Shown: positions 51,329-59,412 of the stretch, in pieces
How positions within the stretch are numbered: position 1 is the stretch's first letter
Layout: every line of letters starts with the position of its first letter
From: Stigmatella ashevillena
GTDB taxonomy: Bacteria; Myxococcota; Myxococcia; Myxococcales; Myxococcaceae
Direction: 5' to 3'
NCBI RefSeq assembly: GCF_028368975.1
Contig: NZ_JAQNDM010000002.1
Coordinates: 8,488,425-8,552,424 of the forward strand
Length of the DNA: 64,000 nt
Program-made: the position numbers and the translations under genes
The notes under the pieces: generated by a model
Databases searched by the model: none
What the model was told of the DNA's origin: nothing
Seen by the model: only the letters and a program-made list of their open reading frames with translations

Positions 51329-52738
51329 CTATCGCGGAGAGGCCCACGTGGCCATGGGGGTGGGTACGGCGTCGCGTGCCTTCAGGATGCGCTGTTTCGG
51401 GTCGGGCCGCTCCACCACCCGGCCCACCAGGTCGTAGTCATGCGCCTCCGTCACCTCGAGGGTGACGAACTCGCCCGGGTAGGCCAGGCCGTCGTTGATG
51501 TAGACCTGACCGTCGATTTCGGGGGCCTGCCCCTCATGGCGGCCCACCAGCAGGTGCTCGGTCTCCGGGCTTGTCCCTTCCACCAGCACCTCGATGCGCT
51601 TGCCCACGAGCTTCTTGTTCTGCTCGCGGTTGATGCGCTTCTGGATGGCCATCACCTCGCGCCAGCGCCGCTCGATGGTCTTCTGGGGAATCTTGTTCGG
51701 CATGTCGTAGGCCGCCGTCCCCTCCTCATCCGAGTACTGGAAGACTCCCAGCCGCTCGAAGCGCTGCGTCTTCACGAACTCCTTCAGCAGCTCGAAGTCC
51801 TCCTCCGTCTCGCCCGGCAGGCCCACGATGAGCGAGGTGCGCATCACCAGGCCTGGAACACGGGCGCGCAGCTTGACCAGCAGGTCCGTGAGGAACTGTG
51901 AGTTGCGGCCGCGCTTCATGGACATGAGCAGCTTGTCGCTGGCGTGCTGCAGCGGCATGTCCAGGTACTTGGCGATCTTCTTCTCCGTCGCCATCACCTC
52001 GATGAGCTCATCCGGGAAGATGCGCGGGTAGGCGTAGTGCAGGCGGATCCACCGCACGTCCACCTTGACCAGCTCCTTGAGCAAGTCGTGCAGCTTGGGC
52101 TTGCCGGGCAGGTCATGGCCGTAGGCCGTGAGGTCCTGCGCCACCAGGTTCAGCTCCTGCACGCCCTGGTCCGCCAGGCGGGTGGCCTCCGCGACGACGT
52201 CCGCGATGGGGCGCGAGCGCTGGCCGCCGCGCAGCGTGGGGATGATGCAGAAGGCGCACGCGTTGTCGCACCCTTCGGACACCTTGAGATAGGCGGTGTA
52301 CGAGGGCATCGAGTTGATGCGCGGCGTCTCCGCGTTGTGGATGTAGTCCGGATCGGGGATGACCTGCCGCGGAGAGGCCTCGGCCGCCAGCAGGTCGCCA
52401 ATCTGGGCGTAGGCGCTGGTGCCCAGGAAGTGGTCCACCTCGGGCATCTCCTGGGCCAGCTCGCCGCCGTGGCGCTGGGACAAGCAGCCTGTCACCACGA
52501 GCGTGCTGCAGGCCCCCGACTTCTTGTACTCGGCCATCTCCAGGATGGAGTCCACGGACTCCTGCTTGGCCGGGCCGATGAAGGCGCAGGTGTTGACGAC
52601 GATGACCTGGGCTTCCGCGGGCTCCTGCACGAGCCGGTAGCCGCGCTGCTTGAGGGTTCCCAGCATCACCTCGGAGTCCACCCGGTTCTTCGGGCAGCCG
52701 AGGGTCATCATGTAAAGGCTCTTGGGTTCTGGCTGCAC
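51329..52738 (-). CDS. rimO: Ribosomal protein S12 methylthiotransferase RimO
   Basis: About 469 residues. The N-terminal UPF0004 domain has three cluster Cys (TLGCPKN, NTCAF, TGCLSQ). The radical SAM domain has CDNACAFC near 150, followed by a C-terminal TRAM domain. RimO adds a methylthio group to Asp88 of S12. Absence of the MiaB-type TKVL/EYDY features and presence of GTSAYAQIG favours RimO over MiaB. The GTG start (5 bp after the previous gene) is inferred. Confidence 0.85.
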
Positions 52739-52743
52739 TGCGT

Positions 52744-53847
52744 CTACCGCTTTCCGAGTTCGGTTCGCTCGAAGTGGTCTGCACTCCAAACGAAGTTGAT
52801 GGTCGCGCCGTTCGAGTAACCGATGGTCAATGCACCGTCTTCATCGAGGCTCACGGAGAGGGCCCTGCCCAGCGCGCACGAAGCAGCCGGCCACTCGAGC
52901 ACACGCTGTGCTGTCTTGCCCTTTCCCACCACGAGGTAGAGTCCCAGCCTCAACTCCTGGTCCCCGTCACATTTTCCCTCGGTGGCATACGGGTTCTTGC
53001 CGGAGACCACGGTCAGGATTGCTCGCCCGCCCGGCAGGGTGAGGGACTCCGGCACGTTCACGCCCACCTGCGAAGGGTCCACCGAGTCCTGGGCCACCAG
53101 CGCCCGCAGGGACCGGGTGTTCAGAGGCTCGTCGGCCTCGACCCAGGCCGGGTGGTGGAGCACGCTCCAGCCCAGCCAGCCGCCCTCCACCGCCTCCAGC
53201 GCGAGGATGTCCGGGGGCGGCTTGAGCTTGAGCCCCTTGCGGAACTCGTCCGGCAGCTTCAGCGCCTCGCCCAGCATGCCCCCATCCTTGCAGTTGGAGA
53301 GGACGGCCGGGGTCTGGCCCTCGGTGTCCTGGTCCTCGTAGGTGAGGCAGAGATCGAAGAGGAGCGGGTCCACGGCGGGAAAGCGCGGGAAGGCCTGGAC
53401 GGGCAGCGCGATCTCCAGGTTCAGCTTGTTGTCCTGACGCTGGGTTCCCACGTCCACCTTCGCTTGGGCGAAGGCGGTGGTGTGGGCCTCGGGCCCCGTG
53501 GCGTGCTTGCCATCGAGGGCGAAGCGGAAGGTGTTGCCCGTGGCGGTGAGCCCGGCGCCGGGAAAGAAGAGGGTGAGGGTGAGCAGGTCTCCGGCCAGCA
53601 GATGGTCGTCGGTGATCTCCACGCCGACGTAGAGCGTCTCCTTGCGCCAGGCCACCCGGGCGGTGAAGGACGCCGAGGCATCCACCTTGGCTGGCGGCCG
53701 GAGCGTCAGGGGCGAGGCGAAGTCCTTGAGGGAGCCCTCCAACTTGGGGGCCTTGGCCAGCGCGGGCACGGCCTTGCTGGGGCGCTCCTGCGCGGTGGCG
53801 GCCAGGGGGACGAGCAGCAGGCACAGCGGGAGGAAGGCGGCGCGCAT
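52744..53847 (-). CDS. Secreted protein with CBM9/DOMON-like domain
   Basis: A 367-residue exported protein ([15 protein letters not shown] signal). Residues about 25-180 look like a CBM9-type beta-sandwich ([21 protein letters not shown] then [13 protein letters not shown]). This fold binds sugars or haem. The rest is of unknown type. It starts 3 bp before yajQ's end, tightly packed in a same-strand run. Confidence 0.65.
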
Positions 53848-53849
53848 GG

Positions 53850-54347
53850 CTAGTCCCGGAAGTTGGTGAACTGCATGTCCAGCTTCAGCCGGTCCTGTTC
53901 CTTGCGGAACAAAGCAATGGCGGCCTGCAGGTCATCCCTGTTCTTTCCGGTGACGCGAAGCTGGTCGGCTTGGATGGACCCCTGGACCTTCAGCTTGGAG
54001 TCCTTGAGGAGCTTGGTGAGTTCTTTGGCCTTCTCCACGGGGATGCCCTGCTGGAGCTTGATGTTCTGCTTGACGTTGTGCAGGCCCGTCTTCTCGATGT
54101 CGAGAAACTCCAGCGCACGCAGGGAGATGTTGCGCTTGGCCAGTTTGGCCAGGAGGACTTCCTTGGCGGCCTGGACCCGCTCCTCGCTGTGGGCCTTCAC
54201 GGTGAGGACGGTCTGGTCCGGGGCAATGACGACATCCGCCTGGGTCCCCTGGAAGTCGTAGCGGGTGCTGAGCTCCTTCTTGGTCTGGTTGACCGCGTTG
54301 TCGAGCTCGGCCAGATCGATCTTGGAGACGACGTCGAAGGAAGGCAT
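53850..54347 (-). CDS. yajQ: YajQ family nucleotide-binding protein
   Basis: A 165-residue YajQ (MPSFDVVSKIDLAELDNAVN start, QIRVTGKNRDDLQAAI-like end). Members bind RNA or c-di-GMP. The downstream Met of MPSFDVV is preferred over an upstream in-frame Met. It lies 17 bp after the RNase J gene. Confidence 0.93.
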   Translation of the reverse strand: MPSFDVVSKIDLAELDNAVNQTKKELSTRYDFQGTQADVVIAPDQTVLTVKAHSEERVQAAKEVLLAKLAKRNISLRALEFLDIEKTGLHNVKQNIKLQQGIPVEKAKELTKLLKDSKLKVQGSIQADQLRVTGKNRDDLQAAIALFRKEQDRLKLDMQFTNFRD

Positions 54348-54364
54348 GGACGCCAGGGCCCTTA

Positions 54365-56005
54365 TCACACCTTGACGACCATGGGCACCACCAGGGGGCG
54401 CTTGCTGGTGAACAGCTTGAAGGCGCGGCGGACGGAGCGGGTCAGTTCCTCTCGTACCAAGGCGTCGTCCCCGCGCAGTTGTGGGGAGAGCTGGAGAAAC
54501 AGGGTGCGGGCCTCTTCGGCCACCCGGGGCAGCATCGCCTGTTCATCCAGGGAGAGCCCCTGGCCGGAGAGCTGGGGACCGGCCATCAGCGCCAGGGACG
54601 CGCGGTCGATGACGACCACCGCCACCACCATGCCCGTCTCGGCCAGCCGGGTGCGCTCCTGGAGGGATTCGGGTGTCACCACGCCCCCGCTGTAGAGGTC
54701 CCTGTGGATGCGGCCGGTGGGCACCTGGCCGGCGAAGCGGCCCCGGCCCTCCTCGAAGGAGATGAGGTCCCCATCCCGGGCCAGCAGGAGCTGCTCGGGG
54801 GTAAGCCCCGACTCGCGCGCCGTGGCCAGGTGGCGGTGAAGGTGGCGCATCTCCCCGTGGACAGGGATGAAGTGCTGGGGGCGCACCAGCTCCAGGACGC
54901 GGCGCTGCTGCGGCTGGCTGGCATGCCCGGAGACGTGGATGTCGGGTTCCACCTGGGCGTAGACGAGGCGGGCCCCCGTCCACTGGAGCTGATCCAGGAG
55001 CGCCCCCACGGAGCGCTCGTTGCCGGGGATGGGCCGGGCGCTGAGGACGACCATGTCCCCGGGGCCCAGCCGCACGGGCCCCTTGCCGGCGGCGAGTTGG
55101 GCCAGCCCCGCGCGGGCCTCTCCCTGGGCGCCCGTGGAGAGCAGGACGACGCGGCTCGGGGCCAGGCTGGGAACGGCCTCCAGGGGCACGAAGAGGGACT
55201 CGGGCACGTCGAGATAGCCCAACTGCCGCGCCATCTCCACGTTGCGCGTCATGCTCCGGCCCTGGAGGGCCACCCGGCGGCCGAGCTGCTCGGCCAGCTT
55301 CAGCACGGTGCGGACGCGGTGGAGGTTGGAGGCGAAGAGCGCCACGACGATGCGGCCCTGGGCCTCGCGAAAGAGCCGCTCGAAGGCGTGCTCCACGACG
55401 CGCTCGCTGCCCGTCTCCTGGGTCACCTCCGAGTTGGTGGAGTCCGACAGGAGGCAGAGCACCCCCTGCTCGCCGGCTTCTCCCCAGCGCTCGAGGTCCG
55501 TGCGCAGGCCGTCGATGGGGTCGGGGTCCAGCTTGAAGTCGCCGGTGTGGATGATGGTCCCCTCGGGGGTCCGGATGATGTAGCCCACCGCGTCGGGGAC
55601 GGTGTGGGTGACGCGGCTGGCCTCCACCGTGAAGACCGAGCCGACGGGGAAGGGGGTCCGGGGCTCGATTTCCCGCAGGTCGGCGATGACGCCCAGCTCA
55701 TCCAGCCGGTTGCGCGCCATGGCGAGGGTATACCGGGTGCCGTACACGGGCACGGGCAGGTCATCGAGGAGGTAGGGCAGCGCGCCCATGTGGTCCTCGT
55801 GCCCGTGGGTGAGGACGATGCCTCGGAACTGGGAGGCGTTCTGTTTCAGGTGGCTGAAATCAGGAATGACGATGTCGATGCCCGGGGCCTCCACGGTGGG
55901 GAACATCAAGCCCGCGTCGATGAGGAGCATCTCCCCTCGGCACGCGAGCACCATCGCATTGAGGCCAATCTCACCCAACCCGCCCAGCGGAATCACATGA
56001 AGCAT
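54365..56005 (-). CDS. Ribonuclease J
   Basis: A 546-residue metallo-beta-lactamase/beta-CASP nuclease. The metal motif is HGHEDH (67-72), and THTVPDAVGY, HTGDFKLDP and SGHASQ follow. It degrades and matures RNA from the 5' end. The second Met is preferred as start because AGGA lies 4 nt upstream of it; the first Met (56017) is an alternative. It lies directly after the AAA+/RF2-like gene. Confidence 0.93.
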   Translation of the reverse strand: MLHVIPLGGLGEIGLNAMVLACRGEMLLIDAGLMFPTVEAPGIDIVIPDFSHLKQNASQFRGIVLTHGHEDHMGALPYLLDDLPVPVYGTRYTLAMARNRLDELGVIADLREIEPRTPFPVGSVFTVEASRVTHTVPDAVGYIIRTPEGTIIHTGDFKLDPDPIDGLRTDLERWGEAGEQGVLCLLSDSTNSEVTQETGSERVVEHAFERLFREAQGRIVVALFASNLHRVRTVLKLAEQLGRRVALQGRSMTRNVEMARQLGYLDVPESLFVPLEAVPSLAPSRVVLLSTGAQGEARAGLAQLAAGKGPVRLGPGDMVVLSARPIPGNERSVGALLDQLQWTGARLVYAQVEPDIHVSGHASQPQQRRVLELVRPQHFIPVHGEMRHLHRHLATARESGLTPEQLLLARDGDLISFEEGRGRFAGQVPTGRIHRDLYSGGVVTPESLQERTRLAETGMVVAVVVIDRASLALMAGPQLSGQGLSLDEQAMLPRVAEEARTLFLQLSPQLRGDDALVREELTRSVRRAFKLFTSKRPLVVPMVVKV

Positions 56006-56090
56006 TGTCCTACTCATTATGAATGGAGGTGTGGCGCCGCCCGAGCTTTTTAAGCGGACGCCTGCCCTGCTGCCTGCTCTCCGCTCCCGC

Positions 56091-58910
56091 TCAAGGCAGG
56101 GGCGGAGCTTCAGGCGGTGGGCGGGAGATCCAGGCCGCGATGAACAGGTCCATGTCGCCGCGCAGCACGTCTTTGACGCGGGGCGTTCCTGCGCCGGTGC
56201 GGGGGTCTTCCACGCGCGCGCCGCGTCCCAGGTAGTAACGGCGGGCCTCGTCCGTGCTGGTTGCCTGGCCCGAGACGACGCGCGTGGCGATGTCCTTCAG
56301 CTCGTCCAGCTCGCCCGAGCCCATCAGGGTCAAGACCCGGCCGGTGGCGGTGTCCTTCACCGTGGCTTCGGTCCGGACGCGCTCCAGGAAGGCGCCTTCG
56401 TGCTGTCTGACCGGGCGGCCTTCGACCGAGAGTTCCAGGTCCTCCCGGTGGGTGAGCACCCCGCCGCGATGCACCCGGACGTAGGCGCGCTGGCGCTTCT
56501 CTTCTTCGATTCGCCGGTGCAGCCCGGCCTCCCCCGCGAGAAACCCGTAGGCGCCTGGCCCCGCGATGCGCACCACCACCCGGGCAGGGCTCTCCGCCTC
56601 GGCCACGAGCATGGCCTCGTAGCCCCGCCTCTGGGCCCATCCGAGATACATGGCGGCGAGCTCCTGGAGCCATGCATCCTGGGCTTCCACCGAGTCGCTG
56701 GCGCAGATGTCCACCAGCGCCTCGACGTCGTCGGCGGTGGCGCCCGAGGCATGCAGGGCCTCGGACATCTGCACCTCGCGGGCAACCTCCTCCACCTGCT
56801 TCGCCGCGGAGGTCAACTGCACCTCGTTCTTGGCTTCGCGCACCAGCCGCCGGGCGAAGGTGACGGCCTGCTCCATCCGCTCCAGCTCGTTGATCTGCGC
56901 CTCGATGGTGCGGAAGGCACGCAGGGTCGCCGCCGCGCGCGCCGGGTCATCCCAGAGGTTGGGGGCCTGGGTCTCGGACAGGAGCTGGTTGCGCTTTTCC
57001 TCGAGCAGGGGCCGCTCGGCGGACACCGACAGCGCCCGGGCCCGTCCCACCAGCCGGTCCATCTCATGCAGCAGGGACTTGCGGTCCAGTCGGCGCTTGA
57101 CGGAGGCCGCCTTGGGGGTGGGCAGGGAGAGCTGGGCGGTGGCCTCGCGGGGGAGCGGCAGGGGCTCGGCCACGGCCATGACCTTGCCGCCGGGGCGGGC
57201 TTCCACCCGCACCGGGGTGCCGGGCCGCAGGGGGCGGCGGGCGATCTCCACGGCGAGCGCGGCGGTGAGCGTCTTCTCGATTTCCCGCTGGAGGAACCGC
57301 GCGCCAAACTGGGGCGAGTAGCCGCGCTCCACGAGCAGGTCCACCACCTCCGGGGTCACCTCCACGTCCAGGGCCCGTGCCCGGATGCCCTCGCGCTCCA
57401 GCACGCGGCCCACTTCGCGCTGGGCAATCTTCCGGATCTCCACCTTCGTCAGCGGCCGGAAGTGGCAGATGGCATCGAAGCGGTTGAGGAACTCGGGACG
57501 GAAGGCCTCGGCGATGCGCCGGTCCACCTCGATGACGAGCTCCTGCTCGCGCCGGTTGCCAGCAAAGCCCAGCGCGGGCTCCCGGTACACCTCCGCGCCC
57601 ACGTTGGACGTGGCCACGATGAGCGTGTTGTTGCAGGAAATCGTCTCGCCTGCCCCGTTGACGAAGGTCCCCTCATCGAAGAGCTGGAGAAAGCGGTCGT
57701 GCACGCTGCGCGCCGCCTTCTCGAACTCATCGAGCAGCAGCACGGTGAAGACCTTGCCGTCGAGCAGGGCGGTCAGCTCACCGCGCCGTGTCTCCATGGC
57801 CGGGGCCCAGGAGGCGCCGAAGGGGACATTCTCGTCCCCATCGTTGGGGAAGTCCGCCATGTTGAGGCGCACCAGCCTGTCCGCGGAGCCGAACAGGTAC
57901 TCGGCCAGCAGTTTGGCGAGCTGGGTCTTTCCCACGCCCGTGGGGCCGGCGAAGAGGAACACGCCCAGCGGACGGCGCGGATCGTTCAGGCCTGCCTTGA
58001 GCAGCGCCACGGAGCGCAGCACCGCGCCCACCGCGTCCGTCTGTCCGAGCAGCCGCTCGCCGAAGAAGCGCTCCGTCTCGTCCAGGTCCAGCGGCATCGC
58101 GTCGTCCACCACGAAGCGGGGCAGGCGCGTGGCGGCGCAGAACCGGGTAAGGACATCTTCGGGGCCCACCCGGTCGTGGGCCGCGCTGCCCGCCTCGGCG
58201 GCGGTCTCCTTGAGCAGCTCGATGGCCTTGCGCGGCATCCGCTGGGCCAGCAGGAACTTGGCGGACAGGCGCAGGGCCAGATCACACGCGGCCGGCTCAA
58301 TGGGCAGGCGCAGCGCGCGCTCTAACTCCTCGGCGACCCGGCCGAGGATCCACCGCGCGCGCTCCAGGGTGGGCTCCTGGAGGGGAATGAGGTGGAGCCG
58401 CTCCGCGAGGGCCTCGTCCGCGCGCAGGAGTTCCTGCACGCGCTTGGGCTCGGTCTCGAAGATGAAGCGCACGCCTCCGGTGCGCAGGGCGCGGATGGCC
58501 ACGGGCGCCAGCGGTCCACCCAGCACCAGGGGAAGGTCCCGGATATAGACGATGGGGCAGGGGTGGCGGCCCAGGTGCTCGAGCAGCTCCTCGAAGCGCT
58601 CCGCGGCCTGGCGATCCGTGCTCCGGGCCAGGATGTTGGCGGTGGAGATCTCCACCAGACGCGCCTGGGCCAGCTCTGCGTCCACGCGCCCCTCGGCGAT
58701 GCGGCGAGCCACTTCCTGGATGAGCGCGCTCTTGCCCACCCCGGGCTCTCCTGCCAGCAGGGGGTGCTTGCCCCCCCGCGTGAGCAGCCCGAGGACCTCC
58801 GCCACCACCGCGTCCGCGCCGTGAGCGGGGGGGAGCTTGCCTTCACGCGCGACCGCTGTGAGGTCGCGATCGATGAGCCTCTCGTTGTCCTCGCTCTTCC
58901 GCGTCGCCAT
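56091..58910 (-). CDS. Two-ring Clp-type AAA+ ATPase fused to an RF2-like module without GGQ
   Basis: A 939-residue single reading frame. D1 (about 20-260) has Walker A GEPGVGKS (54-61) but a changed Walker B (IVYIRDLPLVLG, Arg-Asp in place of Asp-Glu) and no KYRG-type pore loop. D2 (about 285-585) is complete: GPTGVGKT (322-329), LLLDEFEKA, sensor 1 VATSNVG, and GARFL. Its GYVG pore loop is replaced by GASWAPAMETRRG. Residues about 605-935 align with release factor 2 from end to end: NLWDDP, VEAQDAWLQELAAMYLGWAQ, GPGAYGFLAGEAGLHR, and the closing DPRTGAGTPRVKDVLRGDMD. The stop-codon-reading SPF and the peptide-releasing GGQ are absent. There is no Clp N-domain. It heads an RNA/ribosome gene run. 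Confidence 0.88.
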   Translation of the reverse strand: MATRKSEDNERLIDRDLTAVAREGKLPPAHGADAVVAEVLGLLTRGGKHPLLAGEPGVGKSALIQEVARRIAEGRVDAELAQARLVEISTANILARSTDRQAAERFEELLEHLGRHPCPIVYIRDLPLVLGGPLAPVAIRALRTGGVRFIFETEPKRVQELLRADEALAERLHLIPLQEPTLERARWILGRVAEELERALRLPIEPAACDLALRLSAKFLLAQRMPRKAIELLKETAAEAGSAAHDRVGPEDVLTRFCAATRLPRFVVDDAMPLDLDETERFFGERLLGQTDAVGAVLRSVALLKAGLNDPRRPLGVFLFAGPTGVGKTQLAKLLAEYLFGSADRLVRLNMADFPNDGDENVPFGASWAPAMETRRGELTALLDGKVFTVLLLDEFEKAARSVHDRFLQLFDEGTFVNGAGETISCNNTLIVATSNVGAEVYREPALGFAGNRREQELVIEVDRRIAEAFRPEFLNRFDAICHFRPLTKVEIRKIAQREVGRVLEREGIRARALDVEVTPEVVDLLVERGYSPQFGARFLQREIEKTLTAALAVEIARRPLRPGTPVRVEARPGGKVMAVAEPLPLPREATAQLSLPTPKAASVKRRLDRKSLLHEMDRLVGRARALSVSAERPLLEEKRNQLLSETQAPNLWDDPARAAATLRAFRTIEAQINELERMEQAVTFARRLVREAKNEVQLTSAAKQVEEVAREVQMSEALHASGATADDVEALVDICASDSVEAQDAWLQELAAMYLGWAQRRGYEAMLVAEAESPARVVVRIAGPGAYGFLAGEAGLHRRIEEEKRQRAYVRVHRGGVLTHREDLELSVEGRPVRQHEGAFLERVRTEATVKDTATGRVLTLMGSGELDELKDIATRVVSGQATSTDEARRYYLGRGARVEDPRTGAGTPRVKDVLRGDMDLFIAAWISRPPPEAPPLP

Positions 58911-58961: not shown

Positions 58962-59258
58962 TCAAGCGACCGCGCGGCAGTAGGTGATTTCCAGCGGCGC
59001 TGCCAGGATGGTTTTCAGCTCCGAGAATGCCCGCTCTATGTGGGGCATGGCCAGGTGCGTGTTGAGGACGGTTTCGCTCGTCCACTCCTCCATCAAGAAG
59101 AACAAGGTCGGATCCTGCTGGCTCTGGACGGGCTCATAGCGGAGGAGGCCTTCTTCCTGAAGGGTCTTCTCCTTCAGTGCGCGCATCAGATGGCGCAGTG
59201 ATTCCTCTCCGCCGGACTTCGTCTTCAACCGGACGACGACACAAACCTTGTCAGTCAT
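58962..59258 (-). CDS. Putative quinol monooxygenase (ABM fold)
   Basis: A 98-residue YgiN-like protein: VCVVVRLKTKSGGEESLRHL, RYEPVQSQQDPTLFFLMEEW and HLAMPHIERAF. This fold forms dimers that act on quinols or similar small molecules. The Met with GGAGGGG upstream is chosen. Single-gene unit. Confidence 0.82.
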   Translation of the reverse strand: MTDKVCVVVRLKTKSGGEESLRHLMRALKEKTLQEEGLLRYEPVQSQQDPTLFFLMEEWTSETVLNTHLAMPHIERAFSELKTILAAPLEITYCRAVA

Positions 59259-59412
59259 GGTTCCCCTCCCCGTGTGCCAGTGCAATCTATCTCACATGCC
59301 AAGCGGCTGTGCCTGCGGCGAACCTTTCGATTCGTCGTCAGCTGAACAGTGTGATGTGACCTTGGAAGTAGGGCAGTAGCCGGGTGACCTATCGGGTATT
59401 CATTCTCTCGGC

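Follow-up and report, generated by a model that had tools for sequence, protein, structure and literature searches.

ClpB, a tandem AAA+ protein of the Hsp100 type, has a middle domain, and in eukaryotes the AAA+ ring Cdc48/p97 acts on ribosome-bound protein. According to part of one report, ClpA docks ClpP via a conserved IGL/F motif that is absent from ClpB and Hsp104 (PMC5540906), and a portion of another describes the IGF loops as flexible (PMC9035409). PrfH, a relative of the class-I release factors with an unusual role, has retained GGQ and is without domain 1, according to a section of its published analysis (PMC1586002). Features of Clp unfoldases and of release factor 2 (RF2) meet in a single gene of Stigmatella ashevillena, which lies in a window of 64,000 nucleotides (NZ_JAQNDM010000002.1, positions 8,488,425 to 8,552,424; positions below are counted from the first letter of this window). 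The gene at 56091-58910 encodes two Clp AAA+ domains, a flexible linker and then an RF2 fold, and has no Clp N-domain. This architecture is new and its parts are known. Among the open-access papers matched, as listed by title and start of abstract, no such fusion is described; subscription papers and preprints lie outside that scope.

Domain architecture and the AAA+ motor

The minus-strand open reading frame (ORF) runs from an ATG at 58910 to a stop at 56091 and encodes 939 residues. Pfam matches were found to AAA_2 (residues 313-481, E 1.8e-34), ClpB_D2-small (487-569, E 4.5e-14) and PCRF (637-799, E 2.6e-16), and Clp_N was not found among 25 of 41 Pfam rows listed for the protein. The NCBIfam ClpA model (TIGR02639) aligns residues 15-570 in a single stretch to profile positions 173-733 with 287.7 bits (cut-off 993.15), the ClpB model (TIGR03346) gives 284.2 bits in two stretches (cut-off 1232.1), and the prfB/RF2 model (TIGR00020) gives 86.9 bits over residues 630-801 (cut-off 370). 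Since all of these scores are well under the curated cut-offs, the fusion is neither ClpA, ClpB nor RF2 by membership. As in ClpA, there are two AAA+ domains and no middle domain, indicated by the contiguous match; unlike ClpA, the fusion lacks the Clp N-domain, and its N-terminus is the start of the first AAA+ domain (D1). A full-length model, with a mean predicted local distance difference test score (pLDDT) of 71.9 and a predicted TM-score of 0.49, matches ClpC and ClpC1-ClpP structures best.

The motor was aligned with four Clp proteins of the same genome: L003, which is ClpA by NCBIfam (959.6 bits on the part given), L006, a ClpB above its cut-off, L007, named ClpV by eye, and a further Clp protein, L002. 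The family alignment comprises 65 rows, namely the window query and 64 loci, and its rows are not independent, some species being present twice via two collections. Arg-Asp occupies the D1 Walker B in 63 of these rows, Pro-Asp in one, and the region is absent from the remaining row. In addition, three family rows were aligned at the D1 pore loop, and none of them has KYRG/KFRG. The active D1 Walker B and the aromatic D1 pore loop of ClpA are thus both missing, and hydrolysis by D1 has probably been lost. The second AAA+ domain (D2), by contrast with this loss, is intact: Walker A, Walker B, sensor 1, the Arg finger and sensor 2 are each kept in 65/65 rows. So is Trp368 of the D2 pore loop, which stands two residues ahead of the place of the GYVG tyrosine and may be the pulling residue of D2. 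Over nine pairs, the ratio of nonsynonymous to synonymous substitution (dN/dS, a simple Nei-Gojobori count) is 0.015-0.055 for D2 and 0.077-0.139 for D1. The AAA part of the fusion forms its own clade with support of 100/100, in a tree whose long branches were flagged and in which five rows were included with D2 only.

These results bear on a preliminary description of the gene, made from the DNA letters. It had proposed a Clp-type tandem fused to an RF2 body, which Pfam, NCBIfam, profile and fold comparisons bear out; its reading of the D1 Walker B as Arg-Asp holds, and the choice of D2 as the motor is supported by the five ATPase motifs. It had also stated that neither pore loop has the aromatic threading residue. 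That is right in so far as D1 has no KYRG/KFRG and D2 no GYVG, and too strong for D2 in view of the invariant tryptophan.

The preliminary description did not mention a tripeptide in D2 at the place where ClpA carries its ClpP-docking motif. This reads LGF in the window (residues 447-449) and [MLI]GF in 65/65 rows (28 MGF, 25 LGF and 12 IGF), while its flanks are variable and the full-length model gives the loop a pLDDT of <50. It aligns exactly under the IGF of the genome's own ClpA, and ClpB and ClpV of the same genome are without it. Comparison was extended to 16 non-fusion Clp rows. The form [ILVM]GF occurs in 11/11 rows clustering with the own ClpA (4) or with L002 (7), two of them with MGF, and is absent from the five others, which are two ClpB, ClpV, L044 and L045. 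The fusion therefore shares the IGL/F-type tripeptide of ClpA, although MGF, found in 28/65 rows, is a looser form. From this comparison of sequences, ClpP is a probable partner of the fusion. The tripeptide is likely to shift the output of the machine from remodelling to degradation. The genome itself has two ClpP matches over the whole family length and one weak partial match; either full-length match (G000:C2:9070065-9070601 and 4006450-4006986) could be the candidate partner. L002 (G000:C2:537669-539390) is a second Clp protein without a middle domain and has its own ClpP-type LGF loop. It forms a clade distinct from ClpA with six rows that come from further genomes in the family, and its NCBIfam scores of 673 bits with ClpB and 591 bits with ClpA are both under cut-off.

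In summary of likeness, the fusion shares with ClpA/ClpC the tandem AAA+ without a middle domain, an intact D2 and the ClpP tripeptide in the same loop. It differs from them in the missing N-domain, the lost D1 Walker B and pore loop, a D2 loop with GASWAP in place of GAPPGYVG, its separate clade and the C-terminal RF2 fold. ClpB and ClpV resemble it as Hsp100-type tandem AAA+ proteins, and the ClpB score nearly equals that of ClpA, yet neither has the ClpP tripeptide.

An RF2 fold that has lost GGQ and SPF

A profile of 18 family members matches residues 29-360 of E. coli RF2 with an E of 6.7e-22, and the match includes the C-terminal V.DPRTG..PR.KDV.RG..D.FIAAW. Residues 604-939 were modelled with AlphaFold2 from 34 rows (mean pLDDT 76.6, the last ~55 residues averaging below 50). 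Foldseek returned RF2 structures as the best matches of this region, with moderate TM-scores of at most 0.66. Superposition on RF2 had been set as a test of the preliminary description, and the region passed it: a second aligner placed the model on free E. coli RF2 (1gqe) with a Z of 20.7 over 311 residues at 4.6 A. A tree of 48 rows was built after four short RF2 fragments had been left out; its root is uncertain, RF1 falling inside RF2. The 18 RF2-like rows form a single clade in it, supported at 100/100, with a branch length of 3.49 changes per column. EDPRTG of domain 4 is present in 64/65 rows, and the remaining row is without the region.

The motifs by which RF2 works have gone. For instance, the place of GGQ has EG and a variable residue in the consensus, with [HRQ][EAPQ]Gx[YF] in 62 rows listed of 65, and the place of SPF falls in a six-residue deletion. 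Also lost are the GGT tip of helix 5 and the motif of the switch loop. Twenty-three RF2s of Myxococcota were aligned with the 38 RF2-like rows, and domain borders were placed from SPF and GGQ. Positions invariant in RF2 (at least 90%) are kept at 3/8 in domain 1, 10/41 in domain 2, 1/26 in domain 3 and 7/21 in domain 4. Domain 3, the GGQ domain, is shortened compared with RF2. The preliminary description had reported GGQ as replaced, which the family confirms, and SPF as replaced, which the alignment refines to replaced or deleted. Its statement that the domain can neither decode nor release in the known way gains strength from the loss of the GGT tip and switch loop and from the single invariant position surviving in the GGQ domain.

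Purifying selection acts on every part of the protein, most weakly on what remains of the GGQ domain. In the same nine pairs, dN/dS is 0.069-0.132 for the RF2-like part as a whole, at most 0.185 for domain 1 and for domain 2/4, and 0.139-0.577 for domain 3, the loosest. The full query was matched at E <=1e-100 in 84/147 class genomes, some in pieces on short contigs. Because of this recurrence, and because dN/dS is below 1 for every part in every pair, the gene is not a chance product.

Compared with known factors, the domain shares with RF2 (prfB) the fold, the domain-4 C-terminal motif and the G..GfL.GE.G.HR motif, and differs in the absence of GGQ, SPF and GGT, the shortened domain 3, the attached motor and the separate clade on a long branch. 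PrfH/RFH structures are among the fold matches (9mor, Z 9.3; 7sa4, Z 8.5). The fusion is the reverse of PrfH, with GGQ absent and domain 1 present, and does not share the PrfH/RFH feature set.

Possible functions of the fusion

It is tentatively proposed, at somewhat short of an even chance, that the fusion is a ClpP-partnered unfoldase whose dead RF2 arm recruits it to ribosomes, to ribosome-bound clients or to a partner of RF2. The estimate is set there because the ClpP and ribosome parts are not independent and because a partner of RF2 is allowed instead of the ribosome. The protein would be a ClpA/ClpC-type unfoldase without the usual N-terminal adaptor-binding domain, cooperating with ClpP and brought to its presumed clients by the C-terminal dead RF2. 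D1 would hold a hexamer together, having lost normal hydrolysis, and D2 would hydrolyse ATP, pull via the tryptophan pore loop and dock ClpP via [MLI]GF. The RF2-derived arm would bind a ribosomal complex, most likely from the A-site side and by means of domain 1 and superdomain 2/4, which it retains; alternatively it would bind a partner that RF2 normally meets at the ribosome. The ring would then receive a ribosome-bound protein to be unfolded and degraded. The preliminary description had suggested the RF2-like part as a ribosome-docking adaptor, which is plausible on comparison with RF2, and the retention of RF2-invariant positions mainly outside the GGQ domain is in keeping with such an arm. 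Whether the arm addresses ribosomes is evenly balanced. The boldest form of the proposal is doubtful: a ribosome-targeted Clp protease, in which six dead-RF2 arms would address A sites that are stalled, damaged or factor-jammed, and ClpP would destroy the extracted protein.

Several points weigh against a ClpP-partnered, ribosome-directed unfoldase. MGF, the commonest form of the tripeptide, differs from the textbook IGF/IGL, yet 2/11 non-fusion ClpP-type rows share it. The whole-protein ClpB score is close to that of ClpA (284.2 vs 287.7 bits), and L002, which shares the tripeptide, has its better score against ClpB (673 bits, vs 591 for ClpA). A C-terminal fusion on a Clp ring should lie near the ClpP face, where docking could be hindered by the six RF2 bodies; the linker of 20-odd residues (585-607) may let the arm swing clear of that face. 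Only 21/96 RF2-invariant positions survive, and several of these may be fold rather than contact positions. The gene neighbours do not point specifically to the ribosome. Finally, an RF2-like frame without a motor, found in one genome (G086), is not predicted by a simple motor-plus-adaptor model, although that frame may be decaying.

Two other arrangements would keep the motor and change its use. The fusion could be an unfoldase that partners ClpP and employs the RF2 fold off the ribosome, for substrate binding, oligomerisation or regulation, a reading that is rather unlikely. The loss of the stop-codon and peptidyl-transferase motifs, the disappearance of 75/96 RF2-invariant positions and the very long RF2-like branch would all suit such re-use; the retention of the RF2 fold including domain 1, and of a nearly invariant C-terminal motif in domain 4, argue against it. 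Less probable again is the reading of the preliminary description, a protease-independent remodeller at the A site that clears stalled complexes or bound factors, its LGF loop being a relic of ClpA type. The RF2 fold together with the intact D2 agrees with it, as does the ClpB score near that of ClpA, and the C-terminal RF2 arm might clash with ClpP docking. A relic, however, is unlikely to stay hydrophobic-Gly-Phe in 65/65 rows amid variable flanks.

Selection and motif loss bear on the two remaining explanations. That the RF2-like part is a functionless, decaying appendage is already disfavoured and very improbable: it does evolve faster than the AAA part, and one genome has a frame break at the junction, yet the dN/dS values over nine pairs, including those of domains 1 and 2/4, and the recurrence of the full query across the class are not those of a part in decay. 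An active release factor of altered specificity, to which RF2 homology alone would lead, is barely conceivable, GGQ, SPF and the helix-5 GGT tip being absent and ordinary prfA and prfB being present in the same genome.

If the arm of the proposed ClpP-partnered unfoldase binds ribosomes, this bacterial AAA+ protease would be joined to the translation machinery by its own polypeptide and not by a tag or separate adaptor, and would offer a route to asking how bacteria clear proteins off jammed ribosomes. A ribosome protease of this kind would be a direct bacterial AAA+ extraction machine at the ribosome and, in principle, a counterpart of Cdc48/p97; the likeness is one of proposed role, and no homology is claimed. 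Even otherwise the case is unusual, in that a universal translation factor would have become a permanent accessory domain of a machine that destroys proteins and been kept as such across a bacterial family. The fusion offers clear tests at residue level.

Genomic setting, distribution and odd copies

The coordinates of the fusion, its parts and its neighbours are collected in Table 1.

Table 1. Features of the fusion gene and adjacent genes, in window coordinates.
Feature	Position	Strand	Basis
Whole gene, Clp AAA+ tandem and RF2-like domain, 939 aa	56091..58910	-	ORF, Pfam, NCBIfam
D1 AAA+ domain, residues ~12-245, starting directly at the ClpA D1 start, Walker A intact	58176..58877	-	Pfam, NCBIfam, Clp alignment
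D1 Walker B, Arg124-Asp125 replacing Asp-Glu	58536..58541	-	Alignments
D2 AAA+ and small domain, residues ~271-585, ATPase motifs intact	57156..58100	-	Pfam, alignments
Trp368 of the D2 pore loop (GASWAPAM instead of GAPPGYVG)	57807..57809	-	Alignments
LGF 447-449, predicted ClpP-docking tripeptide, within low-confidence loop 445-451	57564..57572	-	Alignments, model
Linker, residues 585-607, pLDDT <50	57090..57158	-	Full-length model
RF2-like domain, residues 604-930: helical domain 1, superdomain 2/4, domain 3 remnant	56121..57101	-	Pfam, profile, model
SPF place, residues ~800-806: six-residue deletion and Glu/Arg stretch	56493..56513	-	RF2 alignment
GGQ place, residues 837-841, HEGAF	56388..56402	-	Alignments
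Conserved C-terminal RF2 domain-4 motif, residues 890-927, RRY...VEDPRTG..PR.KDV.RG..D.FIAAW	56130..56243	-	Profile, RF2 alignment
RNase J gene, downstream neighbour	54365..56017	-	ORF, family match
YajQ (DUF520) gene	53850..54368	-	ORF, family match
RimO-like gene (UPF0004, radical SAM, TRAM)	51329..52789	-	ORF, family match
Antibiotic biosynthesis monooxygenase-domain gene, just upstream	58962..59285	-	Family match

Of the 84 matching genomes, 83 belong to Myxococcaceae, the family of the window, and one (G137) to another family of the order. A contig scan by exact peptide patterns, which distant fusions in other phyla could escape, yielded 37 loci. Thirty-five match the fusion at 59-90% identity, among them L043, which reaches only residue 582 at a contig end, and L030, which is in two pieces; L044 and L045 match in the AAA part only. 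The RF2-like part is ~78% identical against ~90% for the AAA part in cultured species, and ~49% against ~70% in divergent ones. When 195 phylum genomes were searched with the RF2-like profile, the lineages that have the fusion again gave strong matches; outside them the lowest E was 1.2e-24, and six such places that were fetched are all prfB. Matches were also obtained in 29 phage and 30 plasmid records; the 10 listed of each have 22-27% identity, and where a gene is annotated at the match (six records) it is prfB. A record titled Comamonas sp. KCTC 72670 (L027) carries a fusion 84% identical to that of the window, and its label is probably wrong.

Two copies depart from the usual order. The RF2-like frame without an AAA part in G086 (L105:5138-6284) is flanked by genes resembling, by eye, xerC and hslV-hslU. 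It was considered as a standalone ancestor and rejected as such, for an upstream start in another frame resembles, by eye, the N-terminus of the fusion; the locus seems to be a fusion that has lost its AAA part. In G109 (L107:3339-6159) the frame changes near residues 594-600, so that the RF2-like part is encoded in a frame other than that of the AAA part and overlapping it; this is either a split gene or an assembly error.

The preliminary description had RNase J, YajQ and RimO following on the same strand, and in the window they do, the last as a RimO-like gene. The functional link that this implied is local. Downstream sequence of ~5.9 kb or more is available for 24 fusion loci, and 6 of these have RNase J there, adjacent in L036 and ~3 kb off in L011, L014, L015, L022 and L029. 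In shorter loci outside these 24, it is adjacent in L009 and L046-L052 (7/7, near relatives) and ~3 kb off in L030. Adjacency is thus limited to close relatives, and operon logic with the three genes was rejected as a general clue. Of the loci whose neighbourhoods were compared, L001 and L046-L048 alone have the monooxygenase-domain gene next to the fusion. Co-occurrence with RqcH-type NFACT was likewise discarded, 137/142 genomes matching NFACT_N (131 above cut-off) and so giving no discrimination.

Upstream, an HNH endonuclease gene is found in 27/38 loci and at least 10 tRNAs in 11/38; L040 holds 243 bases upstream. In cultured species the fusion is usually behind the HNH endonuclease gene and often behind a long tRNA array. 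The modules also occur apart. The genome of the window has the fusion without HNH, G084 (L175) has a tRNA array without the fusion, the array is on another contig in G137 and ~42 kb away in G048 (10 tRNAs), and in G073 HNH and 4 tRNAs are on another contig than the fusion. The array and HNH were therefore set aside as functional partners and regarded as co-located. Arrays of up to 25 tRNAs with an HNH gene beside or inside them are frequent in Myxococcaceae and are found at L036:2716-4935, L009:2819-4936, L017, L019, L020, L028, L171 and L175. They look supplementary, the genome of the window, with no such array among those listed, having 51 tRNA matches vs 68 in the array-bearing G082, where 150 of 199 candidates were scored.

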